DNA of 64,000 bases, taken from a candidate division WOR-3 bacterium (GTDB taxonomy: Bacteria; Hydrothermota; Tepidihabitantia; Tepidihabitantales; Tepidihabitantaceae). Both the position numbers and the translations under genes were made by a program. Below, piece by piece: positions 48,133 through 64,000 of the stretch. Each line of letters opens with the position of its first letter. The stretch's first letter is position 1. The DNA lies in contig JABLXZ010000002.1 of assembly GCA_013177935.1 (NCBI GenBank), forward strand, positions 62,001-126,000, given 5' to 3'. The notes below the pieces were generated by a model. That model saw only the letters and a list, made by a program, of their open reading frames with translations. It was not told where the DNA came from and searched no databases.

Positions 48133-48276
48133 ACTGTTCCTCCTTTTTATAATACCACTTCACATTGAAAATATGTAACTTACTAAAACCACCACTTCCC
48201 ATCCCGACCCCCTGATTCTATTAGACATCACAACTCAGGCAAGAGATTCACAAACCGGCGACCACAAAACCCCCAA

Positions 48277-48350
48277 TGGGCGATACCTGAATTGAACAGG
48301 TGACCTCCTCCTTGTAAGGGAGGCGCTCTCGCCAACTGAGCTAATCGCCC
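48277..48350 (-). tRNA. tRNA-Val (anticodon TAC)
   Basis: The minus strand folds into a full cloverleaf: acceptor GGGCGAT with ATCGCCC, D arm GCTC/GAGC, anticodon stem CCTCC/GGAGG with loop CTTACAA (anticodon UAC, valine), and T arm ACCTG/CAGGT with loop TTCAATT. Discriminator A at 48277; CCA is not encoded. It has its own consensus promoter. It stands alone, upstream of groESL on the same strand. Confidence 0.95.
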
Positions 48351-48359
48351 TTGTCCGAT

Positions 48360-48388
48360 ATTATATAAACACAAGACCCACCTGTCAA
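48360..48388 (-). promoter_or_regulatory. tRNA-Val promoter
   Basis: Minus strand: TTGACA (48383-48388), 17 nt, TATAAT (48360-48365), 9 nt before the tRNA 5' end. Perfect hexamers. Confidence 0.85.
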
Positions 48389-48397
48389 ACAACCCCG

Positions 48398-48411
48398 GAA
48401 ACGGTCCCCTC
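48398..48411. repeat. GAAACGGTCCCCTC dispersed repeat (copy 3 of 3)
   Basis: The same 14-mer occurs at 11366-11379 (inside a terminator) and inverted at 32747-32760. Here it is followed by GCCCGTTCC, so the copy can again form a hairpin (GGAAACGG with CCCGTTCC). All three are between genes. Confidence 0.65.
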
Positions 48412-48566
48412 GCCCGTTCCCGACACCGTTTTGGAAGTTATCTTTAACATCATAACCACATACAAATAAGAAACTTATACCCAAAATACCAGTAGCACAC
48501 GAAACTAATGCGTTAATTTCTTTACAAAATCGGCTCTAAACGGTCAGAACCAAAAAGGAGAAACCG

Positions 48567-48923
48567 ATGCGCAAAACAAAAGATGTCATTGAACGCTACC
48601 GGAGAAAAATTGTCCTCAGGATGGCAGGGGTCCTGCCCGAAGAAACGATAAAACAGATGATTGACAACTATACCATCGCCCAGAGCCAGATTGCCCTTGT
48701 TGACCAGAAGGTGAGAACCGTGCTCGCCACCGAAAACATCCCCTCCCTATTTTTTGTTCACTACCTCACCTATGGCAGAAAAGTCTGGGCAACCGCCCGG
48801 CGCTACTCGGGCAAAACCGGTGACCAGCAGATAAAAACCCTGCGTCAGTACTGGGCAAAACAGGGCTTAAACGAAACCGTCCTCGAAAAGATTGAACAAA
48901 ATGTCCGTGCCCTCTTACCTTGA
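48567..48923 (+). CDS. Hypothetical protein, first gene of the sigma-factor operon
   Basis: 118 residues, basic and helical, no signal peptide or membrane segment. MRKTKDVIERYRRKIVLRMAG opens it; GRKVWATARRYSGKTGDQQIKTLRQYWAKQGL is the most distinctive stretch. AAAAGGAGAAACCG precedes the ATG. It lies 9 nt before an ECF-like sigma gene. I do not recognise the family. Position suggests a regulator of, or partner to, the sigma factor. No obvious promoter precedes it. Confidence 0.6.
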   Translation: MRKTKDVIERYRRKIVLRMAGVLPEETIKQMIDNYTIAQSQIALVDQKVRTVLATENIPSLFFVHYLTYGRKVWATARRYSGKTGDQQIKTLRQYWAKQGLNETVLEKIEQNVRALLP

Positions 48924-48932
48924 CGACCAAAA

Positions 48933-49520
48933 ATGGCAGAATATCCTCTACCGGTGCGAGATGAACAGGCTGACCTCGTTGCCGAACTCAAAGCGGAAAA
49001 ACCCGGTGCCTTTGAAAAACTGTTCCACACCTTTTGGCGACCGGTGATGGCGCTTGCCTTAATCCACCTCTCCGACACCGCGGAAGCCGAAGACTGTGCG
49101 ATTGAGACCTTTGAGGACCTTGCCCGGGGCATAAAAAGGTTCCGCGGCGAGTCAAAACTCTCCACCTATGTTTACCAGGTTGCCTTAAACCGCATCCGCA
49201 AACATCACCGCAGCCGCAAACGCAGCCTGGCCACGGTCCCGATTGAAACCTGCCCGGAACACCAGTTCGCGACCCCGCCCCTTGAAGCCCGCTTTGAAAC
49301 CGCGGACGAAATCAAACACCTGTATCAGGACTTAAAACGCCTGCCCCGGACCCAGCGCGAGGCAATCACCCTGCGCCACATCCTCGGCTTAAAACTGCCC
49401 GAAGTCGCCCGCACCCTTGGCATCCCGGAAAACGCCGCGGCGATGCGCATCAACCGCGGCATCAAAAAACTGCAAAAGATGCGCCAGCAGCGTCTCCGGA
49501 GGGAAAAGTATGGAAGATAA
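48933..49520 (+). CDS. ECF-like RNA polymerase sigma factor
   Basis: 195 residues. Region 2 (about 27-80): GAFEKLFHTFWRPVMALAL, then AEDCAIETFEDLARGIKRF and STYVYQVALNRIRKHHRSRKR. Region 4 (about 125-185): LPRTQREAITLRHILGLKLPEVARTLGIPENAAAMRINRGIKKLQ, a clear helix-turn-helix. The tail is basic (RLRREKYGR). The family directs RNA polymerase to small regulons and is usually held by an anti-sigma factor; the gene downstream overlaps it by 11 nt and may play this part, although it looks like a SocA/Panacea-type protein, not a membrane anti-sigma factor. No obvious regulon sites seen. Confidence 0.85.
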   Translation: MAEYPLPVRDEQADLVAELKAEKPGAFEKLFHTFWRPVMALALIHLSDTAEAEDCAIETFEDLARGIKRFRGESKLSTYVYQVALNRIRKHHRSRKRSLATVPIETCPEHQFATPPLEARFETADEIKHLYQDLKRLPRTQREAITLRHILGLKLPEVARTLGIPENAAAMRINRGIKKLQKMRQQRLRREKYGR

Positions 49521-50271
49521 ACAAGTCCTGTTCCTCCTCAACCTGCTCCGGCAGGAGATTGACTCTCACCTCAACCGGATTGACGAAAACCAACTCTGGC
49601 AGAAACTCCAGGAAAAACTCGCCACCAAAGACCTCAAGGGTTACCGCCGCCGCATCGAGCAACTCAAAACCCGCGCCGGCACAGTCCGCCTCGCCGACCG
49701 CAAAGACATCATCCTTTTGCTCCTCTACATCCGCGGCGCCACCGGCAAACTGTGCGAACCCATCCTCGGCATCACCCGCATCACCAAACTCCTCTTCATC
49801 GCATTTCAGGAACTTAGCCTTGACACCATCATCAAAAACCCCTACCGCTTTGTCCCCTACAAACTCGGACCATTCACCCCGGAACTCTACACCGACCTGA
49901 AAATTCTCACCGACCTCGGCATCATCACCGCCTATCCCCTTGACCCCGAAGGTGTGCCGGTCATCAACCTTGACCGCGACTTCGCCTCATTCATCGCCAC
50001 CCTCAACTCCGGCATCACCACCGCTGAACGCCTCGACGCCATCAACCTCGCCTTCAACCTCACCCCAAAAGGCAGACAACTTGCCCGCCTATTAGCCCAA
50101 ACCGCGCCCCGCAAGAACAAAAACCTGCTCCCTGGACTCCAGATTGTCAAAACCACCTTTGCCTCCCTCCCCTTAACCCAACTTTTACGCTATGTCTACA
50201 CCCGCTACCCCGAATACACCACGCGCTCCGAAATCATCGAAAAAATCCTCGGGAAACAAGGGCGTAAGTGA
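49510..50271 (+). CDS. SocA/Panacea-like winged-helix protein coupled to the sigma factor
   Basis: 253 residues from the ATG at 49510, 11 nt inside the sigma gene, with GGAGGGAAAAGT just upstream. N-terminal ~55 residues are helical with many Glu and Leu. From about 75 the sequence (ILLLLYIRGATGKLCEPILGITRITKLLF) and then FVPYKLGPFTPELYTDLKILTDLGII recall SocA/Panacea domains of antitoxins, where a 'YGPFsp.ly.dl..L' pattern is typical. The rest is helical, ending SEIIEKILGKQGRK. It may act as an antisigma or an antitoxin-like regulator. Similarity judged by eye only. Confidence 0.5.
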   Translation: MEDKQVLFLLNLLRQEIDSHLNRIDENQLWQKLQEKLATKDLKGYRRRIEQLKTRAGTVRLADRKDIILLLLYIRGATGKLCEPILGITRITKLLFIAFQELSLDTIIKNPYRFVPYKLGPFTPELYTDLKILTDLGIITAYPLDPEGVPVINLDRDFASFIATLNSGITTAERLDAINLAFNLTPKGRQLARLLAQTAPRKNKNLLPGLQIVKTTFASLPLTQLLRYVYTRYPEYTTRSEIIEKILGKQGRK

Positions 50272-50333
50272 CAGAAAATGCGCCGGATTTGAATAAAACA
50301 ACCATCTTTAAAAATAGTAATTAACAGTACAGT

Positions 50334-50409
50334 ACTTGACTTTGAAAAATATTGCATATACTAACTAAAAGAAGATAGAATGATAGCAGTAAAAGAGCCA
50401 AAATTCCTT
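50334..50409 (+). repeat. Promoter-bearing repeat module (copy 1)
   Basis: TTGACT (50336-50341), 15 nt, TATACT (50357-50362), then GAATGATA-GCAGTAAAAGAGCCAAAATTCCTT-like sequence. The same elements recur at 58511-58599 with a few differences and, in part, at 58912-58939. It precedes the AbiJ-type gene. Confidence 0.6.
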
Positions 50410-50438
50410 CTACCAATTTTGCGGGGCAAACCAATGAC

Positions 50439-50496
50439 AAATAACAGCGACTATGAGGGACGTCCGAACTCAAGTTCGGATGTGAACGAGTTAGGC
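50439..50496 (+). other. attC-like site before the AbiJ gene
   Basis: TAAC-AGCG opens it (50441), a perfect hairpin TCCGAACT-CA-AGTTCGGA (50463-50480) forms the centre and GTTAGGC (50490-50496) closes it. This recalls integron attC sites with R'' TAAC, a central stem and R' GTTRRRY. The R'' box is degenerate, so the call is uncertain. Confidence 0.35.
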
Positions 50497-50525
50497 GGAA
50501 TTTAACAAGATTTTGGGGTACTATT

Positions 50526-51371
50526 ATGAGATTATTTTCTCAACGAAAGGGTCTAAAACCCATTAAAAGTAAAGTGCAGGTTGATTCTATGGATGTGGAA
50601 TTGAGAAATAGTTTGTGGAACGTCGTAATTGGCTTTTATATGGGAAACCTAGATGATATTCGTCGTCTAACTAATTTTATAGCGTTATCAAAACGGCTAT
50701 GGTGCAATTATTTTAAATACCCTCTTGACACTCTCCCCAAATATGAGAAGGATACTTATAAGGAAATAAGGGAGTATTTTTTTACTTGCGAATGGTACGA
50801 AGTTTACGATTTCATAGAATTTGTTGCTAACAATTATCCCGACGACTACAACCAGGTCACCCCCAGATTTATAGATTCTTGTAATAACATTTTAGAAAGG
50901 GAGTTGTCAGCATATCGCTTCGTTGGGGGAAAAATTACGCAGATAACATCCAAAGAAGAAATTACTGAAATAGAAGAAGCATTGGAGGCTACCGAGCCTC
51001 TAAAAGGAGTTAATATACACTTAAAATGTGCTTTGGATAAATTGGCAGACAGAAAGTCCCCCGATTACAGAAATTCAGTTAAAGAGTCTATAAGTGCGGT
51101 AGAGGCCATTTGTAAACTAATAACAAAACAGGAAAAGGCAACATTGGGAGAAGCATTAAACAAAATAGAGGACAAAGTTAGTTTACACCCTGCCCTGAAA
51201 AATGCATTTTGCAGTTTATATGGATACACAAGCGACGCGGATGGCATACGCCACGCTTTAGTTGATGAACCTAATCTCGATTTTGAAGATGCAAAATTTA
51301 TGTTAGTTTCATGCTCTGCATTCGTCAATTACCTTATTAGTAAAGCATCAAAAGCGGGGATTAAACTATGA
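50526..51371 (+). CDS. AbiJ-type abortive infection protein
   Basis: 281 residues. The N-terminal ~85 residues (LFSQRKGLKPIKSKVQVD then MDVELRNSLWNVVIGFYMG) match AbiJ_NTD4-type domains. The C-terminus (about 165-275) is HEPN-like: VKESISAVEAICKLI, then SLYGYTSDADGIRHALVD, with the R-x4-6-H-like 'GIRHAL' that HEPN RNases use. Such proteins halt infected cells by RNA cleavage. It has no good Shine-Dalgarno (TTGGGGTACTATT before the ATG). Upstream are a promoter repeat and an attC-like site. The composition is AT-rich, unlike the core genes, which indicates transfer. Confidence 0.75.
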   Translation: MRLFSQRKGLKPIKSKVQVDSMDVELRNSLWNVVIGFYMGNLDDIRRLTNFIALSKRLWCNYFKYPLDTLPKYEKDTYKEIREYFFTCEWYEVYDFIEFVANNYPDDYNQVTPRFIDSCNNILERELSAYRFVGGKITQITSKEEITEIEEALEATEPLKGVNIHLKCALDKLADRKSPDYRNSVKESISAVEAICKLITKQEKATLGEALNKIEDKVSLHPALKNAFCSLYGYTSDADGIRHALVDEPNLDFEDAKFMLVSCSAFVNYLISKASKAGIKL

Positions 51372-51492
51372 TTCGAACGGCACCCAAGAGCGGACATACG
51401 GTTTCGCTTAGTCGGCCAAAATCCCGCTTGGGAGACACACTTATGTAAGTGGGTTTTAATCTCTAAATTTAAGATAAGAAAAGGAGAATTGT

Positions 51493-53211
51493 ATGGCCTA
51501 CTGGATAAACCATGAAATTAGTAAGGTAATTGAACTGATTGAAAAAGAAGATTTTGTTTTGCCTGTGATACAGAGAAAATTAGTATGGGATGAAGAGCAT
51601 ATCACCCTCCTTTTTGATACCATCTTAAAAGGAGATTCCTTTGGAGCGATTATGACTTTAAAAGATATTAAAGGTACTAAGCCATTATTTGAGTTCAGGC
51701 CCTTCGATAAAGATTTTGTTGAAGGAAAGAATATTTTATCAACGAGAGTTGATAAAATAACCAAACATATTTCTTATGTCATTGATGGGCAACAAAGGTT
51801 GTATGCCATATATATCGGATTAACAGGTAGTTATAACAGTAGATATCTATATTTTGACCTTTTAAGCGAATGGGATAAAGATGATTTCTATCTACAATTT
51901 GCTTTGGATAAAAATATGGAATTAAAAAGTCGGGTTGATGCTGCAGATGGAAATGGAACCAGAAGAACTTTTTGGTATAGGGTAAAGGATTTATATAGTC
52001 AATTAGCGAGCGCCGGCAATCCACATCAACGTGTTGTTCAGCAAATCTTTGATGATTATCATGAGGAAAATTTTACCGACGATGAGAAGGAAAGTATTAA
52101 GAAAAATGTTGAAAATTTCGCACAACAATTTTTTTCTTGCAAGAATATTGGAATTTGTGAGGTTTTATTAAACACCGAGAAAGATATTTATTATAACCGT
52201 AGAAAAACGGTAGAATTGTTCAGAAGGCTCAATCAGAGTGGCACAAAATTAGATGCTTCAGAATTAATTGCGTCTGTGCTTAAAAGTTTTACTGCTGATA
52301 ATGAAGAATTTTTATACGAGGACATTAATGAATTTCTCGATTTAAATTTGGGGCAGGATGAAATTATAAAATTAATCTTTATCTTGCAAGATAATCATAG
52401 AAAGGAGCTGTTAGATGTAGAACAACAAGACTCCGATTTTATTCAAAAAAATAGAGATAGGATATTAAATTCTATCAGGGGGACAAAGCAATTTTTAATA
52501 GCTTCTAGATTGTATAACTTTTTTAAAGATTACCGTCCATCTGTGATACCATTGTATTTTATTGCATATCATCTTTTCCATAAAACCGAAATTAACATAG
52601 ATAGTTTAAAAGATTATTTTAATAATGTGGAGGACAATGAAGACTATAAACTTATTTATAAATGGATTTACTTATCATTGCTTAATGGAGTTTTTAGGAG
52701 GCGAGGGGCTGGTTGGACCGCTTACAAAACGGGGATAAGGAAAATATTAGAAGTGATGAAAGAACATAAAAATAAAGAATTTCCTGTAGATAAATTGTTT
52801 AAAATGTATATTGACTACCCCTTAAGTTTTGATGATAACATTAGAGAGGATAAGTTAGATTCTTATGATTTTTCTTTTCTTATGTATATTATTTATGAAA
52901 GATGCAGTAAATTTAGGGAAGAGGACATTGACCATATTCATCCATATGCAATTTTAGAAAAAATTGGGCTTTCACCGGATGGTATAAATACAGTCGCAAA
53001 TAAACAATTATTAGACCGGGGGACAAATAGAGGAAATAAAAGCAACAAAGAACTTAAGGATTGGATTAATAGTTTAAATAATAAAGAGCATTATTTGAAA
53101 AGACATTTAATACCACAAAAAGAAGAGTTGTGGATGAGCTGTAATTATCAAAAGTTTATTAAAGAACGGAGAGCTTTAATTAAAAACAAACTGGTACAAG
53201 AATTGAGATAA
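51493..53211 (+). CDS. DUF262/HNH protein (GmrSD-like restriction enzyme)
   Basis: 572 residues. The DUF262 (ParB-like) N-domain carries LPVIQRKLVWDEEHI and the signature DGQQR (98-102). The C-domain has an HNH-type EDIDHIHPYAIL (D480, H481, H483) with a later NKQLLDRGTNRGNKSNK, the usual DUF1524-like ending. GmrSD-type enzymes cut glucosylated or other modified phage DNA. The gene is AT-rich, has AAAGGAG 6 nt before the ATG and stands alone between two intergenic regions of more than 100 nt. The region upstream (51372-51440) holds a stem CCCAAGaGCGG / CCGCTTGGG. Confidence 0.8.
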   Translation: MAYWINHEISKVIELIEKEDFVLPVIQRKLVWDEEHITLLFDTILKGDSFGAIMTLKDIKGTKPLFEFRPFDKDFVEGKNILSTRVDKITKHISYVIDGQQRLYAIYIGLTGSYNSRYLYFDLLSEWDKDDFYLQFALDKNMELKSRVDAADGNGTRRTFWYRVKDLYSQLASAGNPHQRVVQQIFDDYHEENFTDDEKESIKKNVENFAQQFFSCKNIGICEVLLNTEKDIYYNRRKTVELFRRLNQSGTKLDASELIASVLKSFTADNEEFLYEDINEFLDLNLGQDEIIKLIFILQDNHRKELLDVEQQDSDFIQKNRDRILNSIRGTKQFLIASRLYNFFKDYRPSVIPLYFIAYHLFHKTEINIDSLKDYFNNVEDNEDYKLIYKWIYLSLLNGVFRRRGAGWTAYKTGIRKILEVMKEHKNKEFPVDKLFKMYIDYPLSFDDNIREDKLDSYDFSFLMYIIYERCSKFREEDIDHIHPYAILEKIGLSPDGINTVANKQLLDRGTNRGNKSNKELKDWINSLNNKEHYLKRHLIPQKEELWMSCNYQKFIKERRALIKNKLVQELR

Positions 53212-53492
53212 TTTGCGCGCAACACCGTGTTTAGTAAGCTTTACTAAATTCATCTTATTACGTCGCCGTAGATTTGGGTTAACGGGGTTTCTAAATCTCC
53301 CCTTTTGGTCTCTCTTATCTTCCCGCCGCGCCAAGCTTTCATTTTTCTTGATAAAATATAATGTAATAAAGTAAGGCGATATGAATAAGGAACTGGTAAC
53401 GCCATAAAACTTTATTGTACCGCCAGCGACAGGGCGGAGAAAGGCAAAAAGCTGTTAGGTCAAAAGCGGTAGACAAATGAAAGGAGCAATAA
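53212..53492. other. Intergenic region with attC-like site, 281 nt
   Basis: Contains TTGATAAAATATAATGTAATAAAG (53349 on), a possible promoter; then from TGGTAAC (53394) through a hairpin CCGCC-AGCGACAG-GGCGG to GTTAGGT (53454-53460) an attC-like arrangement resembling the one at 50439. GAAAGGAGCAATAA directly precedes the next ATG. Confidence 0.35.
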
Positions 53493-54415
53493 ATGATTCC
53501 AGAAGAATTAAAAAAGTATGATTATTTGGATAAGTTGCATGAAATATATATGCCCTTTACAGAAGAAGACTTGTTATGTCATCTTGCGAGCAAAAACGTT
53601 CTCAGAAAATATTATAAAAAGAGCATTGAAGATTACAAGATATGGTGCACCGCTAATTGTGCACAGAAGAAAAATTGAACTTGAGACAGGTGAGGGGGCC
53701 ACGCCAAATAGAAAAAAATGAAAGGTTATGGACCGCCGCATGTCTGATGACAGTTTTTTATAGTAAGAGCAGAAGCCAAGAACTTACCAAAATCTTTAGC
53801 AAAGGTTATGGTGAGACACCCCCAATTGAAGGATTAAACTCATGGAATGAATGCTTTGAAGGAGAATTGCATTTATTTTTTGAACCGGGGCTCCCCTCCC
53901 CGAGTTCATATAAAGAATGGTTGCGAAAGAACCTCGAAAAAAGACATTTTATTCCCTACGTTTTGGAATGTGCTAATGACGATAAAGAGCTTGAAGGTCG
54001 TACAAATGTTGATGCAATCCTTTTGAATTCAGAAAATGGATTTGCTGTTATAATTGAAGCAAAAGTATTGTCAGACATCTCCATCGATGTTACCTATGAC
54101 ACTATGCGCAACCAAATTGTAAGAAATATTGATGACATGTTAGAAAAGAATAGAAACAAAAAATTCCCCTTGAATAAAAGAGATCCCTCGAAATCATTGT
54201 TTCTCCTTATTACGCCCAAACTTTTCAAGGAAAATCCCTCAAGCCGTTTGTATGGATATAAATTCAATGAATATAAAACCAACCCCGCTTCTTTAGCAGA
54301 CGATTTACCTCATAGAGAGAATTTTGATTGGCAAAATATATCCAAGAAATTAGGTTGGTTAACATGGGAAGACTTTCGGGGGGTAAATAAAAATTGTTGT
54401 TTGTGGTTAAAATAA
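53493..54415 (+). pseudogene. Frameshifted PD-(D/E)XK nuclease gene
   Basis: The reading frame opens at the ATG at 53493 with AAAGGAG 7 nt upstream and gives MIPEELKKYDYLDKLHEIY... for 61 codons. It then continues best in the +1 frame (RYGAPLIVHRRKIELETGEG) for some 25 residues and then in a third frame (NERLWTAACLMTVFYSKSRS) to the stop at 54415. Removing one A from the A7 run near 53712 joins the second and third frames cleanly (PNRK-NERLW). The last frame has a nuclease motif: D119 of TNVDAILL and E134-A-K136 of IIEAKV, counting from the TTG at 53657. Either a decayed gene, programmed frameshifting or sequence errors; a ~300-residue nuclease is implied. Confidence 0.6.
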
Positions 54416-54787
54416 TTGGGGACAAAACCTTACAACAAAATTTATCCGAGTTATATTAAATTCGCCACGGGGCTAAATTCCTTCCATCGTATGATGATTT
54501 TAAAATAAAGCCTGTACTTGCCATTAACCCATTTCCGCATAGAATACAATTGTGCGATGTAATGAAATCGTAAAGCGGTTGCGGGCGCTTGCCAATTCGA
54601 AAGGCCCAAAAACTCACCGCCGGCATTTTAACGCCTGGCAATAATCTAACCGCTATTTAACCCATTCCCGAATACACCAGGTTATCCAATTCGGGTTGGA
54701 ATTTTCCCGTTTTGTTTTGACTTTACAAAGGCGGGTTTTAGGATTATAGTTATTTCTGTAAGTAATAATTTTTTATAAATTACGGAA
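54416..54787. other. Intergenic region with truncated alkD 5' copy
   Basis: 372 nt with no complete gene. 54518-54602 is a copy of the alkD promoter and first codons (see the separate entry). The rest is AT-rich; TTGACT (54717-54722) with TAGGAT (54739-54744) is a weak promoter, and TATAAA (54774-54779) lies 8 nt before the AbiEi ATG. Confidence 0.5.
54518..54644 (+). pseudogene. Remnant of alkD promoter and 5' end (repeat copy 1)
   Basis: TTGCCA (54518-54523), 16 nt, TAGAAT (54540-54545), 6 nt, GTG (54552). The GTG opens a 30-codon frame that shares RCNEIVKRLRALAN with the alkD-like gene, diverges at about codon 16 and stops at 54644. Copies 2 and 3 are at 60367 and 61611. Confidence 0.75.
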
Positions 54788-55423
54788 ATGAAGTATTCAG
54801 AGTTTAAGGATGCGGTAAGAGGTTTTCCGCTCATCACTTCAACCATTATCGATAACCTCAGCCGCAAAGCCCCAATTTTACGGGTCCAGTTAAGTGGCTG
54901 GCGGGAAAAGGGGTTAATCATCAGGCTAAAGCGGGGAATTTACATCCTGAATGCCGGCGATAGAAAGATTGAGCCCTCAAGAGTATTTCTCGCTAATGCC
55001 CTGTATTCACCTTCTTATGTGAGCACAACCTACGCTTTGGGCTTTTACGACTTAATTCCGGAAAAGGTCGCGGATGTAACTTCGGTTACGACCAAAAAGA
55101 CCGCGAAATTTATTAACCCCCTTGGCACCTTTGTCTATCAGCATCTGAAGCCCGAACTTTTCTTTGGCTTTACCGAAGTAAAGGATGAAAACCGCTTCCC
55201 GGTTTTTATTGCCGAGCCCGAGAAGGCGCTGCTTGACCTTATCTACCTGAACCTTGAGGATTTCAAGGGCAAAGAACCGGACTTTTTTAGTCTGTCCTAT
55301 CGGTTGCAAAACCTGAGCATCCTGAAAAAGAGCAAACTCGTCGCTTATGCCCGACGGTTTGAAAATCAATCGGTTATGGATGTATTAAAAAATTTTTTAA
55401 TTTTTCTGAAGAAAGGGGGTTAG
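54788..55423 (+). CDS. AbiEi-type antitoxin of a type IV toxin-antitoxin system
   Basis: 211 residues. The N-terminal winged helix (residues 1-60) with FKDAVRGFPLITSTIID, LRVQLSGWREKGLIIRLKRGIYIL is typical of AbiEi. The central STTYALGFYDLIPE and TTKKTAKFINPLGTFVYQHLKPELFFGF match the family. FIAEPEKALLDLIYLNL is the usual late motif. AbiEi represses its own operon and counters the toxin. The toxin gene follows after 4 nt. Upstream, TATAAA ends 8 nt before the ATG, so it may be leaderless; no Shine-Dalgarno is seen. GC content is nearer the core than in the genes before it. Confidence 0.88.
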   Translation: MKYSEFKDAVRGFPLITSTIIDNLSRKAPILRVQLSGWREKGLIIRLKRGIYILNAGDRKIEPSRVFLANALYSPSYVSTTYALGFYDLIPEKVADVTSVTTKKTAKFINPLGTFVYQHLKPELFFGFTEVKDENRFPVFIAEPEKALLDLIYLNLEDFKGKEPDFFSLSYRLQNLSILKKSKLVAYARRFENQSVMDVLKNFLIFLKKGG

Positions 55424-55427
55424 CCCG

Positions 55428-56222
55428 ATGCTGGAGGTAATTGAGAAAAGCATTGCCGGTATTGCCCGCCGGGAGGAAAAGGTTCATATCACCAGGGAGT
55501 TTTTACAGTTGCTTGTGTTAAAGATTCTTGATGACAAAGGGTATTTTAAAAACCTCGCCTTTGTCGGCGGGACCGCGCTCCGAGTGTTATATGGTTTGCG
55601 CCGGTTTTCCGAAGACCTTGACTTCTCCCTCATCGCTAAAAAGGACTATGATTTTGATAACCTGTTAGAAAAGGTTGCTTACGAATTGACGAAGGCGGGA
55701 TTTTCCTTAGATATTAAGAGTAGTACCGAAGGCGCGGTGCATTCGGCGCTGTTAAAATTTAAAGACATTCTCTTTCTTTTGGGGTTAGCCCACCAGAAGG
55801 GACAAAAACTTTCTATTAAACTGGAAATCGATTCCAACCCGCCCCGCGGCTGGCAAACAGAACTGTCCCTGGTGAACAAACATTTTGTTTTCACCGTTAA
55901 CCATTTTGACATCCCTTCGCTTTATGCCACCAAACTCCATGCCTGCTTTTTTAGAAAATATATCAAGGGCAGGGACTTTTATGACCTAATCTGGTATCTG
56001 GGCAAAAAGGTGTTACCCAATTTTGAACTCCTCAACAATGCGATTGAGCAGACCGAACACAAAAGGATAAATTTAAATAAAGAAGACTTCAATGACTTTT
56101 TAAGGGCAAGGCTGGCACGGGTTGATTTTGCCAGGGTCAAAAAAGATGTCGAAAGATTTATTGAGGATAAGAATGAACTCAAACTTCTTAACAAGGATTT
56201 GATATTAAAACTTATCGGCTGA
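55428..56222 (+). CDS. AbiEii/AbiGii-type nucleotidyltransferase toxin
   Basis: 264 residues. The nucleotidyltransferase core has FVGGTALRVLYGLRRFSEDLDFSL: GG (47-48) and the metal-binding SEDLDF (61-66, Asp63 and Asp65). The later IKLEIDSNPPRGWQ and LHACFFRKYIKGRDFYDLIWYL complete the pattern. AbiEii toxins transfer nucleotides to tRNA acceptor stems or other RNA and halt growth. The ATG lies 4 nt after the AbiEi stop with GGGGG some 12 nt upstream; the two form one operon. All catalytic residues are intact. Confidence 0.88.
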   Translation: MLEVIEKSIAGIARREEKVHITREFLQLLVLKILDDKGYFKNLAFVGGTALRVLYGLRRFSEDLDFSLIAKKDYDFDNLLEKVAYELTKAGFSLDIKSSTEGAVHSALLKFKDILFLLGLAHQKGQKLSIKLEIDSNPPRGWQTELSLVNKHFVFTVNHFDIPSLYATKLHACFFRKYIKGRDFYDLIWYLGKKVLPNFELLNNAIEQTEHKRINLNKEDFNDFLRARLARVDFARVKKDVERFIEDKNELKLLNKDLILKLIG

Positions 56223-56273
56223 AGACCAGCGCTTGCAACATTGCTGAGTAAAATTAGTGCTCCCGGCATAAAC

Positions 56274-56301
56274 TTGACAGAAAAATAACCCGGGTTAAAT
56301 T
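56274..56301 (+). promoter_or_regulatory. Promoter of the MTase-MjaI operon
   Basis: TTGACA (56274-56279), 16 nt, TAAATT (56296-56301), about 58 nt before the ATG at 56360, which has AAGGTGAT. This gene is leadered. Confidence 0.65.
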
Positions 56302-56359
56302 AAGTTGATTGAATTGGCAAACCGGCGGCTTTGAGTATGCCAAACTCTTAAGGTGATGT

Positions 56360-57661
56360 ATGAAGACCTGGCACCGGATAATCATCGGTGATGCGCGATG
56401 GATGAAGGAGGTTGAAGATGAATCAATTCATCTTATCGTTACCTCGCCCCCATACTGGCAATTAAAGGATTATGGCAATGGCAAGCAGATAGGGTTCAAT
56501 GACAGTTATGAGGATTATATCAATAACCTCAATCTGGTCTGGAATGAGTGCCATCGGGTATTACACAAAGGCTGCCGATTGTGTATTAACATTGGCGACC
56601 AGTTCGCCCGTTCGGTCTATTACGGCAGATACAAAGTCATTCCCATAAGAACCGAAATCATCAAGTTCTGCGAGAGCGCCGGGTTTGATTATATGGGAGC
56701 AATCATCTGGCAGAAGGTGACCACCTGCCACACAACCGGCGGCGCAACGGTGATGGGCTCTTATCCGTATCCCAGAAATGGCATCATTAAACTGGATTAT
56801 GAGTTCATCCTGATTTTTAAAAAATACGGCAATCCGCCCAGAGTCAGCAAGGAGATAAAGGAAATGTCAAAGTTGACTGAAGAGGAATGGAGCCGCTATT
56901 TTACCGGGCACTGGAAATTTTCCGGCGAAAGGCAGGACAAACACCTCGCGATGTTCCCCGAAGAGTTGCCCAAGCGGCTCATTAAGATGTTCAGTTTTGT
57001 TGGCGATACGGTTCTTGACCCTTTTCTTGGCAGCGGGACGACATCTTTAGCCGCCAAAAATCTCAACAGAAATTCCATCGGCTACGAGATAAATGAGGAG
57101 TTCCTGCCGATAATAAAAGAAAAACTGGGCATAACGCAGAGGGCAATGTTTCCGGATGCAACCTTTGAAATTATCAAACAGGATGAACCAAATATAGATT
57201 TCAAAGAGGAGATTAAAAAGTTGCCTTACATCTTCAAGGACCCTATAAGATTTGATAAGAAGATTGACCCGAAAAAATTAAGGTTCGGTTCAAGGATTGA
57301 TAACACCACTCCTGAGCGCGAAACCTATTATACGGTAAAAGAAATAGTTTCGCCCGAGATATTGGTTTTAAACAACGGATTAAAAATCCAACTCCTTGGT
57401 GTGAAGGAGAAACCGGGTAAAAATGGTGCGGCGATTCAATATATAAGAGAAAAGACAAAAGGGCAAAAGGTTTTTATGAAATTTGACGAAGTAAAGCACG
57501 ACCAGAATAATAACTTACTTTGTTATCTCTATTTGCAGAATAAGACCTTCTTAAATGCCCATTTGATTAAAAAGGGTCTGGTTGATGTGGATACGACAAT
57601 TAATTATAAATACCGGACAAAATTCTTAACTCTTCAGAAAGGGTTAAAGAACACAATATGA
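56360..57661 (+). CDS. DNA methyltransferase with C-terminal SNase-like domain
   Basis: 433 residues. Residues 1-260 are a DNA methyltransferase with the catalytic TSPPYW (28-33) before the SAM-binding LDPFLGSGTTSLAA (219-232). The SPPY form is seen in N4-cytosine and some N6-adenine enzymes; with the MjaI-type endonuclease next door, CTAG N4-cytosine methylation is likely. Residues about 322-430 (LKIQLLGVKEKPGKNGAAIQ, NNLLCYLYLQNKTFLNAHLI) resemble the staphylococcal-nuclease fold. However, residues expected for catalysis appear absent: 'LLGVKEKP' replaces the Asp-Thr-Pro-Glu segment and no Arg precedes the LCYLYL strand. That domain may bind nucleic acid rather than cut. It overlaps the endonuclease start by 4 nt. 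Confidence 0.8.
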   Translation: MKTWHRIIIGDARWMKEVEDESIHLIVTSPPYWQLKDYGNGKQIGFNDSYEDYINNLNLVWNECHRVLHKGCRLCINIGDQFARSVYYGRYKVIPIRTEIIKFCESAGFDYMGAIIWQKVTTCHTTGGATVMGSYPYPRNGIIKLDYEFILIFKKYGNPPRVSKEIKEMSKLTEEEWSRYFTGHWKFSGERQDKHLAMFPEELPKRLIKMFSFVGDTVLDPFLGSGTTSLAAKNLNRNSIGYEINEEFLPIIKEKLGITQRAMFPDATFEIIKQDEPNIDFKEEIKKLPYIFKDPIRFDKKIDPKKLRFGSRIDNTTPERETYYTVKEIVSPEILVLNNGLKIQLLGVKEKPGKNGAAIQYIREKTKGQKVFMKFDEVKHDQNNNLLCYLYLQNKTFLNAHLIKKGLVDVDTTINYKYRTKFLTLQKGLKNTI

Positions 57662-58242
57662 AGGTCAGAATCACGGTTGAAGAGATAAGAAAATATCTTG
57701 ATATAGAAACGCCCGAATTCCCTAAGTATGTCGCACCACTTATCAATTTAGCCAATCAGTATGCCCAGGGAACGCGGCCGAAAGTTGTCGGGCAGATGAG
57801 TGAACTTATCCAGGAGTTTGAAGGGAAGACACTTTCCGAGTGGGAACAGTGGTATTTAGAGAAAAAACCCGATGCAATCAGAAATGCTACAGAAAAGATA
57901 TTACAGAAATTGAGGGAAATCAAAAACTCACTTGACCGGATTGACCGAACAATGGTTGAACGCTGGGTCCGCGATTTGGTAATTGTTAAAACTTTTGCCG
58001 GATTAAGGTTTCAGGAGGCGATACTAAAAAAGGGCGCGGAGTTAAAAGGAACAGATTACCGGTTGGCAGAGCCGGAAGAGGAATCAAAAGGGATTGATGG
58101 TTACATTGGCGATGTGCCTGTATCAATAAAACCCGACACCTATGATGTTAAAGCATCATTACCCGAACACATTGGCATCAAAATCATCTATTACAAAAAG
58201 ATTGATGATGGGATTGAGGTAGATTATGGAGAAATTCTATAA
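57658..58242 (+). CDS. MjaI-family type II restriction endonuclease (predicted CTAG)
   Basis: 194 residues. LINLANQYAQGTRPKVVGQ and SELIQEFEGKTLSEWEQWY are typical of the MjaI endonuclease family. A later GIDGYIGDVPVSIKPDTY with its Asp and Lys may be the active site. MjaI cuts CTAG. The start overlaps the methyltransferase stop as ATGA, giving a translationally coupled R-M pair. The last 14 codons (KIDDGIEVDYGEIL) are duplicated 402 bp downstream as part of the 294-bp repeat, without the rest of the gene. Confidence 0.75.
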   Translation: MKVRITVEEIRKYLDIETPEFPKYVAPLINLANQYAQGTRPKVVGQMSELIQEFEGKTLSEWEQWYLEKKPDAIRNATEKILQKLREIKNSLDRIDRTMVERWVRDLVIVKTFAGLRFQEAILKKGAELKGTDYRLAEPEEESKGIDGYIGDVPVSIKPDTYDVKASLPEHIGIKIIYYKKIDDGIEVDYGEIL

Positions 58243-58491
58243 TGAGTCGCTGCCTAACAGCGGATAAAAAATTTTCAAAATGCATGAAAGGAGGTGATAA
58301 ACATGGCAAGTTGTCCGGGGAAAAGGGATAATCATACCTGTTCTAGTACGCTCTACAGGTGCAAGAAATGCGGGAATATTGGATGTGACCAGGGTAAACC
58401 GGGCAAGTGCACAAACCAGGGTTTTAGCTCGGGGAAGTGCTTAAAATGTGGCTCAACGGGTCAAAAGGAATTGTTCCGTTAAGCGCATTTA
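58198..58491 (+). repeat. 294-bp direct repeat, copy 1
   Basis: Identical by eye to 58600-58893 (offset 402). It spans the last 14 codons of the MjaI-type gene, the GCCTAAC half site (58252) and the whole zinc-ribbon gene. The 108 bp between the copies holds the second promoter module. Confidence 0.95.
58303..58482 (+). CDS. Small cysteine-rich zinc-ribbon protein (copy 1)
   Basis: 59 residues from the ATG at 58303, where AAAGGAGGTGAT, an almost perfect anti-Shine-Dalgarno complement, lies 4 nt upstream; a GTG 9 nt before it overlaps the Shine-Dalgarno and is not the start. Cysteines are arranged C-x8-C (CPGKRDNHTC), then CKKCGNIGC, GKC and GKCLKCGS: a zinc-ribbon-like fold with seven to nine cysteines. 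No signal peptide. An identical gene follows 402 bp later. I do not know the function. Small zinc ribbons next to R-M genes can be regulators, but nothing here proves it. Confidence 0.7.
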   Translation: MASCPGKRDNHTCSSTLYRCKKCGNIGCDQGKPGKCTNQGFSSGKCLKCGSTGQKELFR

Positions 58492-58510
58492 AGGATGGCT
58501 TTGTTCCCCC

Positions 58511-58599
58511 AATACTCTTGCTTGACTTTTTAAAATGTGAGGTATACTAAGAACAGTGGAATGATATCAGCATCATCAGTAAAAGAACAAAAATTCCTT
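58511..58599 (+). repeat. Promoter-bearing repeat module (copy 2)
   Basis: AATACTCTTGC, TTGACT (58522-58527), 15 nt, TATACT (58543-58548), then AATGATATCAGCATCATCAG and TAAAAGAACAAAAATTCCTT. It ends exactly where the second 294-bp repeat begins (58600), which marks a recombination joint. Confidence 0.65.
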
Positions 58600-58893
58600 A
58601 AGATTGATGATGGGATTGAGGTAGATTATGGAGAAATTCTATAATGAGTCGCTGCCTAACAGCGGATAAAAAATTTTCAAAATGCATGAAAGGAGGTGAT
58701 AAACATGGCAAGTTGTCCGGGGAAAAGGGATAATCATACCTGTTCTAGTACGCTCTACAGGTGCAAGAAATGCGGGAATATTGGATGTGACCAGGGTAAA
58801 CCGGGCAAGTGCACAAACCAGGGTTTTAGCTCGGGGAAGTGCTTAAAATGTGGCTCAACGGGTCAAAAGGAATTGTTCCGTTAAGCGCATTTA
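58600..58893 (+). repeat. 294-bp direct repeat, copy 2
   Basis: Exact copy of 58198-58491. It carries an orphan 3' end of the endonuclease gene and the second zinc-ribbon gene. Downstream sequence then diverges (CGGCTGTATTGTG) before the third promoter module starts at 58912. Confidence 0.95.
58705..58884 (+). CDS. Small cysteine-rich zinc-ribbon protein (copy 2)
   Basis: Identical in nucleotides to the gene at 58303, including its strong Shine-Dalgarno. It may be expressed from the promoter at 58522. Perfect identity means a recent duplication, or gene conversion. Confidence 0.7.
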   Translation: MASCPGKRDNHTCSSTLYRCKKCGNIGCDQGKPGKCTNQGFSSGKCLKCGSTGQKELFR

Positions 58894-58911
58894 CGGCTGT
58901 ATTGTGTCCTT

Positions 58912-58939
58912 AATACTCTTGCTTGACTTTTTAAAATGT
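58912..58939 (+). repeat. Promoter-bearing repeat module, truncated (copy 3)
   Basis: AATACTCTTGCTTGACTTTTTAAAATGT is shared with copy 2 and then the sequence leaves the repeat. TTGACT (58923-58928), 15 nt, TATAAT (58944-58949) would still act as a promoter, but it lies inside the first codons of the following ORF. Confidence 0.6.
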
Positions 58940-60222
58940 TAGATATAATAAAAAATGTAACCAATCCTACTGCTCACCTTTCTCATCTCACTATTAAGGA
59001 TTATATACTCTGGTTTACAAAACATGGTTCTATCGAGTCTGAATTTTATGGTAGAGAAAATTATAGCAATAAGATTGTGTATCTCAAATCGTTTGACACC
59101 GAACGAATTAAACCAGAACTGAAAATTGGGAATGAAGTATATACTAATGATTATTATGAAAAAATTCCTTTTGGGCACGTCTTTCCCCCAGAGTGTTATA
59201 AGCAACATGACTTGACAGGAAAACAAGCAGACCTGCAAGATCAAGGAAAAGATGTTGACAAAATAGACTTAATCTGCAAAAGGGTATATCTATCAAACGA
59301 AACCGGCAAGCAAAAACCTGATGTTCCATTTCAAATAGTATTTTATATTGAAGGAGACGAGGCAAAAAGATCTTATAACAAAATGCTCATTCCAAAAGGA
59401 AGGGTGGCAAAACTACATTATGACCAATACACAGTAGAAAGCAGATATGGTCTATGGGCATGTAAGGATTTTATTCCTGTTGTAAACATAACAAGTTGGA
59501 TTGAAACACGCGGGATTAAGTCCCGATTTCATGCATTTATAAATTGTGATAAATTTGAACTTACAGCCAATAGAAGCACTATTGATAATACCCCTTCTGA
59601 CATTATTTCCAGTGTAAAAGAACGCACAAAAGAGATATACAGAGAAATTATCCAAAAATCAGATGAATATAAAGAAATTGAAAGGTTGATAGAGGAAGAA
59701 GAGAAACAACGGCAATTAGAGGAAGATAAGAAAGAATTTGCAAAAAGGATTAAAAATTTAAGTAAACTTAAGAAATGCGTCTATAAAAATATAACGTTAT
59801 TTGAACCAAAGACAGAAGCAGAGGTATATGGACTTATTATGAGGTTAATGGCAGTGAACCCTGACTTATTTGACTTTGAAATATTAGATTATCGGACCGA
59901 TAAGGGAATTGATTTTTTAGTAAGGAAGAAGAGCGACCCTCCAGAACTTCCAAGTTATAAATATGTAGAATTGAAACATATTTTAAGGGGGTCTTTCAAT
60001 CACTGCTTTATGTACCTTCATAAAGTAATATGTTTTAAGATTGAAGATGGGCTTAACCGAGTTAAGGGGATTGATGGCATTCGCATCATAACCTCATCTA
60101 CAGATAGAGGTGAAACAAAGTTCTATTTAACGCCAGAATCACCTTCTCCCGACCAAGATAATATTGAAATTATCGTTTTAGAGACATTTCTTAGGGAAAA
60201 GCTAAAGTTAGAATTTACATAA
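58936..60222 (+). CDS. 5'-truncated Hsp90/MORC-like ATPase with C-terminal PD-(D/E)XK domain
   Basis: 428 residues in an open frame from an ATG at 58936 that overlaps the promoter repeat and has no Shine-Dalgarno, so the true N-terminus is uncertain. LWACKDFIPVVNITSWIETRGIKSRFHAFINCDKFELTANRSTI is typical of the middle domain of Hsp90-like ATPases (sacsin/MORC-type), which should follow a ~250-residue ATP-binding domain that is missing. A coiled coil rich in Glu and Lys follows (about 235-285). The C-terminal PD-(D/E)XK-like motif is D326 (GIDFLV) with E345-L-K347 (YVELKH). Likely a defence ATPase-nuclease that lost its 5' half by recombination at the repeat. Whether the residual protein is made is unknown. 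Confidence 0.55.
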   Translation: MLDIIKNVTNPTAHLSHLTIKDYILWFTKHGSIESEFYGRENYSNKIVYLKSFDTERIKPELKIGNEVYTNDYYEKIPFGHVFPPECYKQHDLTGKQADLQDQGKDVDKIDLICKRVYLSNETGKQKPDVPFQIVFYIEGDEAKRSYNKMLIPKGRVAKLHYDQYTVESRYGLWACKDFIPVVNITSWIETRGIKSRFHAFINCDKFELTANRSTIDNTPSDIISSVKERTKEIYREIIQKSDEYKEIERLIEEEEKQRQLEEDKKEFAKRIKNLSKLKKCVYKNITLFEPKTEAEVYGLIMRLMAVNPDLFDFEILDYRTDKGIDFLVRKKSDPPELPSYKYVELKHILRGSFNHCFMYLHKVICFKIEDGLNRVKGIDGIRIITSSTDRGETKFYLTPESPSPDQDNIEIIVLETFLREKLKLEFT

Positions 60223-60251
60223 GAATGAAAAACTCATTGTATCGTTTGAAT

Positions 60252-60258
60252 GCCTAAC
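60252..60258 (+). other. attC R''-like half site
   Basis: GCCTAACGGCGTATAAAAC follows the ATPase-nuclease gene; the same GCCTAACAGCGGATAAAA follows the MjaI-type gene (58252) and its repeat (58654). No matching GTTAGGC lies within about 150 nt downstream. Confidence 0.3.
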
Positions 60259-60366
60259 GGCGTATAAAACAGCATAAAAAGGTTGTGCTTACGGCACATT
60301 CCCAAATATTTGCTTCGCATAACATTGATTTTACAAAAAATTCGCCTAAATAGCCCCTGCCTGCAC

Positions 60367-60394
60367 TTGACATTAACCCATTGACAGGCATCCT
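60367..60394 (+). promoter_or_regulatory. Leaderless-type promoter, alkD 5' repeat copy 2
   Basis: TTGACA (60367-60372), 16 nt, CATCCT (60389-60394), 6 nt, GTG (60401). Nearly the same sequence as at 61611, from the -35 through some 170 nt of coding sequence. Confidence 0.65.
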
Positions 60395-60400
60395 GGAATA

Positions 60401-61549
60401 GTGCGGTGTGATGAAATCGTAAAGCGGTTGCGGTCGCTTGCCAATCCTCGAGCGGTTGCCGGAATGGCACGATTCGGGATTAATACGAAGCGGGCTTACG
60501 GGGTGTCAATCCCCGATTTAAGAAGACTCGCGAAGGAAATCGGCAGGGACCATAAACTGGCGCAGAACAATATTATGAAGAAATTAATGGTCACTATTTT
60601 GGTTGTTTCAACAGTCCTGATGTCAGGATGTATAAATCTACCTTCCACTAACCGAAACTACACGCAGGATATGCGCGATTTTATCCAGAATATTAGTACC
60701 TATGCAAAGGGAATAAAACCTAACTTCATTGTCATTCCCCAGAATGGGCAAGAACTGATAACTGAAAACGGAGAACCAACCGGACCGCCAGCAACGAATT
60801 ATCTTAATGCTATTGATGGTTTGGCGCGGGAGGATTTGTTCTACGGATACGATGAAGATAATGTGGCAACACCCCAGCCGGAACGAAACTATATGATACC
60901 CTTTATTGATATTGCCAAGAATAACGGTAAAAGGGTTTTAGTCGTTGACTATTGTTGGACTCAATCGTTTGTGGACGACTCCTATAATCAGAACGCAGTT
61001 AGAGGCTACATATCATTCGCGGCAGAACATAGGGAACTGGATAACATTCCGTCGTACCCGACGACTCCCTACAATGCCAATCTTGACAATATTACTTCGC
61101 TAGCCGAAGCGAAGAACTTTTTGTATTTGATTAACCCCGGCTCTTATCCTACAAAGGCAGCATTTCTAAGTGCAATCCAGAACACAGATTATGATGTTGT
61201 CATTATCGACCTCTTCTACGGCACCGAGCAACTAAATCCTGGCGACATCGCATCATTGAAGGTTAAGGTTAATGGCGGTGTTCGTCTGGTAATTGCTTAT
61301 ATGAGTATTGGCGAAGCAGAAGATTACAGATATTATTGGGAGGCAGAATGGGAAACACACCAACCTGCCTGGTTGGTAGAGGAAAATCCGGATTGGCCTG
61401 GCAACTATAAAGTCCGGTACTGGGATAAGAATTGGCAGAGCATCATCTATGGAAACGATAATTCCTATCTAAAAAAGATTCTTGATGCAGGATTTGACGG
61501 CGTGTATCTCGATATTGTCGATGCATTTGAATACTTTGAAGGTCAATAA
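60401..61549 (+). CDS. GH114/TM1410-like lipoprotein, in-frame fused to the first ~56 residues of the alkD-like protein
   Basis: 382 residues from the GTG at 60401. Residues 1-56 (MRCDEIVKRLRSLANPRAVA ... HKLAQ) are near-identical to the alkD-like protein at 61645, then the sequence changes to MKKLMVTILVVSTVLMSGC, a signal peptide with an ideal lipobox (LMSGC), at M59 (ATG at 60575). That internal start has no clear Shine-Dalgarno. The rest matches TM1410-type/GH114 (polygalactosaminidase-like) proteins: VVIIDLFYGTEQLNPGDI, LVIAYMSIGEAEDYRYYW and GFDGVYLDIVDAFEYF. Since a signal peptide cannot work from residue 59, the lipoprotein is probably translated from 60575; the fusion may be an accident of recombination that gave the gene a promoter. 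Confidence 0.7.
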   Translation: MRCDEIVKRLRSLANPRAVAGMARFGINTKRAYGVSIPDLRRLAKEIGRDHKLAQNNIMKKLMVTILVVSTVLMSGCINLPSTNRNYTQDMRDFIQNISTYAKGIKPNFIVIPQNGQELITENGEPTGPPATNYLNAIDGLAREDLFYGYDEDNVATPQPERNYMIPFIDIAKNNGKRVLVVDYCWTQSFVDDSYNQNAVRGYISFAAEHRELDNIPSYPTTPYNANLDNITSLAEAKNFLYLINPGSYPTKAAFLSAIQNTDYDVVIIDLFYGTEQLNPGDIASLKVKVNGGVRLVIAYMSIGEAEDYRYYWEAEWETHQPAWLVEENPDWPGNYKVRYWDKNWQSIIYGNDNSYLKKILDAGFDGVYLDIVDAFEYFEGQ

Positions 61550-61610
61550 TCATGCTGTGGCAAGAAAGCCATTCCAAAATGAATGGCGCCTTTATGGCAC
61601 CCACCTCTAC

Positions 61611-61638
61611 TTGACATTAACCCATTGACAGGTATCCT
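61611..61638 (+). promoter_or_regulatory. Leaderless-type promoter of the alkD-like gene (repeat copy 3)
   Basis: TTGACA (61611-61616), 16 nt, TATCCT (61633-61638), 6 nt, GTG (61645). A hairpin GCCATTC-CAAAAT-GAATGGC (61568-61587) just upstream may end the preceding transcript. Confidence 0.7.
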
Positions 61639-61644
61639 GCAATA

Positions 61645-62331
61645 GTGCAATGCAATGAAATCATAAAGCGGTTGCGGGCGCTTGGCAAACCGAAAGCGGT
61701 TGCCGGAATGGCACGATTCGGGATTAATACGAAGCGGGCTTACGGAGTGTCAATTCCCGATTTGAGAAGACTGGCAAAGGAAATTGGTAAGAACCATAAA
61801 CTGGCGCAGGAACTGTGGAAAATAGATAACCGGGAAACGCGCATCCTTGCCGGTATGGTTGATGAGCCGGAACTTGTGACTGAAGACCAGATGGAGAAGC
61901 GGGTTAAGGATTTTGCGGACTGGGAGGTCTGTGACCAGGTCTGCCAGAACCTTTTTATTTATACCAAGTTTGCCTATCAGAAGGCGCAGGAGTGGAGCCG
62001 GCGTGATGAGGAGTTTGTTAAGCGGGCAGGTTTTGCCTTGATGGCGTGGCTGGCGTTCAAGGATAAGACGGCAAAGGATGAGGCGTTTGAGCGGTTTCTG
62101 CCCGCTATCAAAAGGGAGGCAACGGATAATAGAAATTTTGTGAAGAAGGCGGTGAACTGGGCGTTAAGGCAGATTGGTAAAAGAAGTATTTACCTGAATG
62201 AGAAGGCACTAAAAACGGCAAGGGAGGTTGAAAAGATTGAATCTAAGAGTGCCAGATGGATTGCCCGGGATGCAATCAAGGAGCTAACAAGCAATGCCGT
62301 GCAGGAGCGGCTGAAAAAGGTGGGCGGTTAA
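61645..62331 (+). CDS. DNA alkylation repair protein (AlkD-like)
   Basis: 228 residues, family length, starting with a GTG 6 nt past the -10 box; no Shine-Dalgarno, so leaderless. AlkD enzymes are HEAT-repeat glycosylases that excise N3- and N7-alkylated bases. IKRLRALGKPKAVAGMARFGINTKRAYGVSIPDLRRLAKEIG starts it and KRVKDFADWEVCDQVCQNLF, RRDEEFVKRAGFALMAWLAF and NFVKKAVNWALRQIGKRS (the catalytic-region Trp and Arg) follow. This is the intact parent of the two 5' copies at 54518 and 60367. Its GC-richness agrees with the core genome. Confidence 0.9.
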   Translation: MQCNEIIKRLRALGKPKAVAGMARFGINTKRAYGVSIPDLRRLAKEIGKNHKLAQELWKIDNRETRILAGMVDEPELVTEDQMEKRVKDFADWEVCDQVCQNLFIYTKFAYQKAQEWSRRDEEFVKRAGFALMAWLAFKDKTAKDEAFERFLPAIKREATDNRNFVKKAVNWALRQIGKRSIYLNEKALKTAREVEKIESKSARWIARDAIKELTSNAVQERLKKVGG

Positions 62332-62344
62332 GTAAGGAGGAAAT

Positions 62345-63823
62345 GTGAAAATAAGTTGCGGAGCGGTTTTGCTCGGTCTGGTGCTAATGGTGGCACCGGT
62401 TTTTGCCAATTTGTGGTATCTTCGCCGGGGTGCTGATAGTCTTGATGATGCCTGGGCGGTTACCGTTGATAGTAGCGGCAGGGTTTACTGGGCAACAACC
62501 GAATGGCAACCCCGCGCCACCCATAATGACATCTTTCTTTACATCGTTGACTCTACCGGCAGGCAACTGTGGCGCAGTCAACCGCTGAGCGATACATCAA
62601 GAAATCGGGTTGCATTCATTGCCGTGCTTGAAGAGCCCAATCTTTATATCGGGGGCAGAATTGAAAAGATTAGTACCGATTTGCTGCTTTTATCACTGCG
62701 CCGCGACCAGGATACCTTTGTCCCGGAATGGCAGTATATCTGGGACCAGGCACGAGGATATGAGGAGGTTGATGGCATCGGCGTGGAAGGGGATGTGATT
62801 TATCTCTCGGGCTGGACCACACCGTCCCTGTGGAACAATGACATCGTTGTCCAGAAACTCAACCGCAGCGGCACTCTCCTGTGGAGTAGCACCTGGGGCG
62901 GACCTGGTCTGGAAGGTGCCAATGGTCATCTGGCACTGGACGCTAACAACATCTACCTCGCCTCACATCTCGGCACGCTTGACTCGAGTGGCAACGCCAT
63001 CTTAATTGCCTTTTCCAAAGATAGTGGCACCTATCTCTGGGATTCAATCTGGGATGGGTATCATCTCGACGACAACTTCTTCGGACTGGAGATGAGCAGC
63101 GACTCTTTTCTGTATTGCTTTGGTTATACCGACACCGAACCATCTATTTTCGGTCAACTGGACCTGATTCTGGTGAAGTACACCCGCACCGGTCAGAAGC
63201 TCTGGGAAAGGCGCTGGGGTGGTCCAAATAGTGAGTGGGGACGGGCAATTCTGGCTGATGGCGATAGTGTCGTTTATATCTGTGGCAATACTGCCAGTTA
63301 TGGTGGCGGTGCTACAGACATAGTATTGGTGAAATATAACTCAAGCGGCGAATTACTTGGTTGCAGGACCTGGGGTGGGCGTCAGGATGACATTGTTCAC
63401 GATATCGTTAAATTCGGTGACCATTTATACATCACGGGAAGGACCCAAAACTTTGGTGCCGAACAAGAGGATGCGCTCCTCATCAAGGCCAATGCCCGGA
63501 CTATGGAATTACCGGATACATTAATTGGTATCGAAGACCGCAGCGGCAATCAGCCGGTGCGATTAACCGTAACTCCCAACCCGTTTATTAACCAGACGGC
63601 AATTAACTTCAGCACCAGAAATGAGCCGGTTTGGTTAACTATTTATGACCCTGTCGGGCAGGTAGTTAGAGACATTTTTATCCCTGCCCGGTCTGGAACC
63701 AGACCGGTTATCTGGAACGGCCGAGACAATTCCGGCAAACCGCTTGACCCGGGTATCTACTTTATCCAGCTGAAGGCGGGCACAGCCAATTCAACCGGTA
63801 AAGTCTTGCTACTGCGCCATTGA
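62345..63823 (+). CDS. Secreted SBBP-like propeller protein with T9SS-like C-terminus
   Basis: 492 residues from a GTG at 62345 with AAGGAGG just upstream. Signal peptide (GAVLLGLVLMVAPVFAN). The body is a beta-propeller with SBBP-like blades: WAVTVDSSGRVYWATTE, LLWSSTWGGPGLEGA, KLWERRWGGPNSEWGRAI, GCRTWGGRQDDIVHDIV. The C-terminal ~85 residues (LTVTPNPFINQTAINFSTRN ... LDPGIYFIQLKAG ... KVLLLRH) are a FlgD/T9SS type A-like domain. Probably secreted to the cell surface. It follows the alkD-like gene after 13 nt. Confidence 0.8.
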   Translation: MKISCGAVLLGLVLMVAPVFANLWYLRRGADSLDDAWAVTVDSSGRVYWATTEWQPRATHNDIFLYIVDSTGRQLWRSQPLSDTSRNRVAFIAVLEEPNLYIGGRIEKISTDLLLLSLRRDQDTFVPEWQYIWDQARGYEEVDGIGVEGDVIYLSGWTTPSLWNNDIVVQKLNRSGTLLWSSTWGGPGLEGANGHLALDANNIYLASHLGTLDSSGNAILIAFSKDSGTYLWDSIWDGYHLDDNFFGLEMSSDSFLYCFGYTDTEPSIFGQLDLILVKYTRTGQKLWERRWGGPNSEWGRAILADGDSVVYICGNTASYGGGATDIVLVKYNSSGELLGCRTWGGRQDDIVHDIVKFGDHLYITGRTQNFGAEQEDALLIKANARTMELPDTLIGIEDRSGNQPVRLTVTPNPFINQTAINFSTRNEPVWLTIYDPVGQVVRDIFIPARSGTRPVIWNGRDNSGKPLDPGIYFIQLKAGTANSTGKVLLLRH

Positions 63824-63832
63824 TTTAAAAAC

Positions 63833-63860
63833 TTGACAGCACATCTGCCGGGCATAAAAT
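63833..63860 (+). promoter_or_regulatory. Promoter reading towards the window end
   Basis: TTGACA (63833-63838), 16 nt, TAAAAT (63855-63860). Sequence 63861-64000 has no convincing start codon or gene; the next gene would lie outside the window. Confidence 0.6.
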
Positions 63861-64000
63861 TTTATTGACGAATAGGGCGTTTTTTACAATCAGGGGCATC
63901 AATTTCCTCATTGGGCATTCTGCCTGCGGGATGCGCTAATCCTTGGAAAAAAACATCTCCTGGCGCCGGGGTGTTTTGATGCTGGCTTAATTTATTTAAG

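Follow-up and report, generated by a model that had tools for sequence, protein, structure and literature searches.

The window analysed here, a 64,000-nt stretch of contig JABLXZ010000002.1 from a candidate division WOR-3 bacterium, carries on its forward strand a single open reading frame (60401..61549, from GTG 60401 to the stop) in which parts of two proteins are joined. By sequence and Pfam comparison, the 382-residue product consists of an AlkD N-terminus (residues 1-55), a three-residue junction (AACAATATT, 60566..60574, forward strand) and a GH114 lipoprotein. Pfam finds both domains in the one frame, DNA_alkylation (AlkD) over residues 7-60 (E 3.4e-7) and GH114 over residues 263-377 (E 2.2e-16), bearing out the in-frame switch to a complete lipoprotein described in the initial annotation. 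The AlkD portion covers positions 2-57 of the 213 in profile PF08713, short of a full-length HEAT-like repeat domain, and the fused ORF is not an AlkD enzyme. What stands at this locus is an alkD promoter and start codon in frame with a gene that stands alone elsewhere, the arrangement of a promoter-capture fusion; the chimera is real and well supported, and it is of a known kind.

An intact alkD gene with its promoter follows on the same strand (61587..62331; Pfam and consensus scan). There TTGACA (61611-61616), a 16-nt spacer, TATCCT (61633-61638) and a further 6 nt lead to GTG 61645 and a 228-residue protein that matches PF08713 from end to end (1-213 of 213). Comparison within the window aligns the fusion's promoter together with its first 55 codons, the second of three alkD heads (60343..60565, forward strand), with 61587-61809 as a gapless direct repeat of 223 nt, 87% identical and spaced by 1244 nt; the whole-genome BLAST E value of 9.8e-73 excludes chance. 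The initial annotation had called these stretches near-identical, some 1.24 kb apart, from TTGACA through about 56 codons, and had proposed aligning 60360-60580 with 61604-61830. That alignment does recover the repeat at the expected spacing, but at 87% identity only: 20 of the 165 nucleotides in the 55 common codons differ (88% identity), so that "near-identical" is too strong, and the left edge lies about 24 bp ahead of TTGACA. The longest exact run between the heads is 51 bp (60451-60501), and they diverge from 60566 on, nine bases before ATG 60575.

With the repeat as query, the whole genome yields just three sites, the two heads already described and 54510-54596, which extends within the window to 54511-54603 (forward strand). 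This third head comprises TTGCCA (54518-54523), 16 nt, TAGAAT (54540-54545), 6 nt, GTG 54552 and 17 codons (VRCNEIVKRLRALANSK), after which the sequence is unrelated; it lies about 180 bp ahead of an AbiE pair, again with unrelated sequence between. The heads, ending at codon 17 or codon 55, are 77-87% alike. By appearance the third looks the oldest of the three, and this second, older alkD stump shows that the captured head is not the sole such event in its surroundings.

All three heads share one layout (-35, 16 nt, -10, 6 nt, GTG), with -35/-10 pairs of TTGCCA/TAGAAT at 54511, TTGACA/CATCCT at 60343 and TTGACA/TATCCT at 61587. Such spacing would place the start codon at the 5' end of the transcript. 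A TANNNT motif occurs at the leaderless offset before 15 of 206 long ORFs, compared with about 4 for other offsets, which indicates that leaderless genes are probably over-represented in this genome. When the promoter of a leaderless gene is captured the start codon comes with it, so the acquired gene would have to be read in frame or started internally; the leaderless layout would thus explain why codons were captured here along with the promoter. The captured promoter itself (60367..60394, forward strand) has its -35 TTGACA at 60367-60372, the 16-nt spacer and its -10 CATCCT at 60389-60394. Lacking the key first T, this -10 is predicted to be weaker than the TATCCT of the intact copy. Because of that loss, and because a consensus promoter scan scores the intact alkD promoter (61611-61638) and not the captured one, the strength of the captured promoter is uncertain.

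The remainder of the ORF is a complete GH114-family lipoprotein gene (60575..61549, forward strand; 324 residues beginning MKKLMVTILVVSTVLMSGC...), recognised by Pfam and by its relatives. Its score against PF03537 is 60.2 bits for a cut-off of 27; the match spans only positions 15-119 of the 231 in the profile, and does likewise in close relatives. A signal peptide and lipobox were identified by eye and are conserved in relatives. The AlkD N-terminus is no regular part of this protein, a possibility the initial annotation had raised: none of 13 relatives examined (about 37-68% identity) carries it, and all begin at about the same Met. Relatives are scattered across the phylum, close ones being missing from the genus and family, and composition switches along the locus, with GC of 0.333 in the upstream ORF, 0.538 in the head, 0.418 in the lipoprotein part and 0.494 in intact alkD, against about 0.52 for stretches of the genome. 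Judged from its sequence, the lipoprotein gene is shown to be foreign and horizontally acquired. Neither a Shine-Dalgarno sequence nor a promoter is visible upstream of ATG 60575.

These features agree with the earlier proposal that recombination joined an alkD head to an incoming gene, in that the relatives lack the AlkD part, composition changes at the junction and the gene has no visible start signals of its own; the proposal fails in deriving the head from the neighbouring alkD. The companion idea, that a repeat supplied the promoter, fares similarly, the capture being in place ahead of a gene without visible signals of its own but the -10 being weakened and missed by the scan. Expression of the lipoprotein from the captured alkD promoter is plausible, and the 58-residue extension ahead of the signal peptide could hinder export. 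A conserved AlkD-GH114 operon was considered and rejected, since among 147 genomes of the phylum the two lie side by side only in this genome and in G012. The latter belongs to another genus of the same family and has, on its contig C29 (L025), a distant AlkD homologue directly 5' of a co-oriented GH114 lipoprotein gene.

The fusion lies within a variable defence island of 13.7 kb and low GC (50258..63988), delimited by blastn against the same-genus genome G001 and by its defence genes; the initial annotation overlooked both this island and the further alkD stump in it. The two genomes match at 46631-50257 (89.5%) and again from 63989 (83%), with nothing homologous between, and the whole island, alkD included, has no counterpart in G001; neither of the two same-genus genomes has AlkD. 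Island genes include AbiJ-NTD4/PDC-S32, GmrSD/HEC-05, AbiEi/AbiEii, a type II MTase and an MjaI-type REase. At 58936-60222 there is also a 428-aa ORF (GC 0.333), without a confident Pfam or PADLOC match, that may encode an unrecognised defence protein. Part of the island is a near-tandem 356-bp duplication (58198-58553 and 58600-58954, 96% identity) that comprises the 3'-terminal part of the MjaI-type nuclease gene, a small ORF for a cysteine-rich protein of 62 aa and a good promoter; both copies of the small ORF encode the same protein.

The same site in G001 is occupied by a different island, of 8.9 kb (L052, C2:206000-225999), in which 65-135 bp from the 3' end of the left neighbour recur two more times and one gene lies between copies of a 275-bp repeat (97%). 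As a control for such repeats, both genomes were sampled in 20 stretches of 20 kb, and 15 had none; among the five with matches (L153, L155, L156, L161 and L166), the two inspected, L155 and L166, seem to have repeats internal to coding sequence, so the control is partial. No integrase was recognised among the island genes scanned and no transposase in the island, and site-specific integration was rejected on the ground that the stumps end at different codons, with no common end point. Integron cassettes were likewise set aside: GCCTAAC motifs follow two genes, while the genome has no integron integrase match above the TIGR02249 cut-off and the island no convincing attC site. The motifs, at 58252, 58654 and 60252, fall shortly after gene stops and resemble one end of an attC, without a partner box.

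The differences between the captured and intact heads bear directly on where the former came from. Third codon positions take 11 of the 20 (P 0.04), and in codons 18-48 all of the changes (8 of 31 codons) are synonymous. At all nine amino-acid differences the residue of the captured head is found in AlkD relatives; of the two alternatives at positions 12, 14 and 15, these relatives more often have that of the captured head, and none of 88 has the K15 of the intact copy. When random substitution at 8-10 sites was simulated, wholly family-compatible residues resulted in 0.1-0.6% of trials. The initial annotation took the head for a copied repeat of the adjoining alkD, a view that these substitutions contradict. 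On their pattern, the captured head is shown to be a once-working, divergent alkD allele and not a drifting duplicate, and the family-compatible residues, the synonymous bias and their rarity under random substitution argue that the divergence predates the truncation. The 87% identity between heads is of the same order as that of the flanks to G001 (83-89%), and a related species could reasonably have supplied the allele. Other alkD loci, both named ones and those within the phylum, gave no convincing match to the promoter region, matches being confined to the coding part; the donor was thus untraceable, and no genome turned up that represents a donor, an empty site or an intermediate.

The same pattern disfavours a local origin, in which insertion of the lipoprotein gene made a long target duplication of the resident alkD head and the upstream copy has been drifting since. 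The insert is indeed flanked by direct repeats, and the G001 island also has repeats of 57-275 bp around its genes. Yet the upstream copy is AlkD-compatible throughout, at three positions resembling the family more than the intact one does, and neutral drift seldom reproduces this; we regard such a duplication as improbable. Misassembly is less probable still. The structure is read from the assembly of a metagenome-assembled genome in five contigs, but the 13% difference between copies should keep them from being confused, the head differs from the local alkD, there is a third head, and similar repeats occur in another genome.

The arrangement was probably produced by a circularised donor fragment that carried a divergent alkD head and the acquired GH114 lipoprotein gene and integrated by a single crossover, giving a chimera transcribed from the alkD promoter. 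In one E. coli study, most clones formed by single-crossover integration of circularised fragments with trimmed homology carried partial duplications, 109-950 bp long (PMC3240628). Here the donor would have been a linear fragment, lipoprotein gene followed by alkD head, broken at codon 55; ligation of its ends would have joined that codon to the 5' end of the lipoprotein gene, which would have lost its own upstream signals. A crossover in the resident alkD head, possibly in the 51-bp identical run, would then give the order head, lipoprotein, intact alkD. Transcription of the lipoprotein gene would start at the alkD promoter and its translation at GTG 60401 or, with low efficiency, at ATG 60575, and the stump at 54511 would record a similar, earlier event. 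In-frame joining is a one-in-three chance and needs no selection. Against this mechanism, 13% divergence makes recombination inefficient, though the identical run is present.

The main rival is a deletion. Two full alkD genes would have stood in tandem around the lipoprotein gene, and loss of the upstream gene's 3' portion together with the lipoprotein promoter would have created the fusion. This fits a captured head that evolved as functional AlkD; deletion-born fusions are documented (PMC12803068, PMC4395868), the stump at 54511 is another truncated alkD, and G012 provides a distant AlkD gene ahead of a GH114 lipoprotein. It requires, however, an extra step to set two divergent alkD genes on both sides of the lipoprotein, the genome has no 3' alkD remnant elsewhere, and AlkD and GH114 are not a conserved pair in the phylum. 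We consider it unlikely, if less so than the other alternatives.

Beyond this locus, integration of circularised fragments suggests a route by which defence hot spots may grow without a recognisable integrase, and leaderless starts would be expected to force captured genes into protein fusions. It is conceivable, if doubtful, that this is general where many genes are leaderless: promoter and start codon being inseparable, arrivals at a hot spot would repeatedly be expressed as in-frame fusions to resident heads, while circularised-fragment integration enlarges the hot spot and leaves graded stumps of gene ends. Defence islands at chromosomal hot spots (PMC10121019, PMC10250203) have, as here, fixed flanks and differing defence genes among siblings; in this case no integrase or transposase was recognised, and the traces left consist of pieces of neighbouring genes. 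The partial target duplication beside the insert recalls the integrations in PMC3240628, at 223 bp here and 109-950 bp there, but those arose between identical sequences in laboratory conjugation of E. coli, whereas the present case is natural and old, with alleles 13% apart. It is an instance of natural promoter capture in which the captured head, the incoming gene and the intact resident alkD can be seen side by side. Like the fusions formed by deletion or promoter capture (PMC4395868, PMC12803068), it joins an upstream promoter and N-terminus in frame to a downstream gene, with activation possible, transcription having been raised after such a fusion in PMC4395868. It differs from them in its apparently leaderless captured start and in the placing of the head 5' of a foreign gene that an intact alkD follows, an order that favours repeat-making integration over simple deletion.
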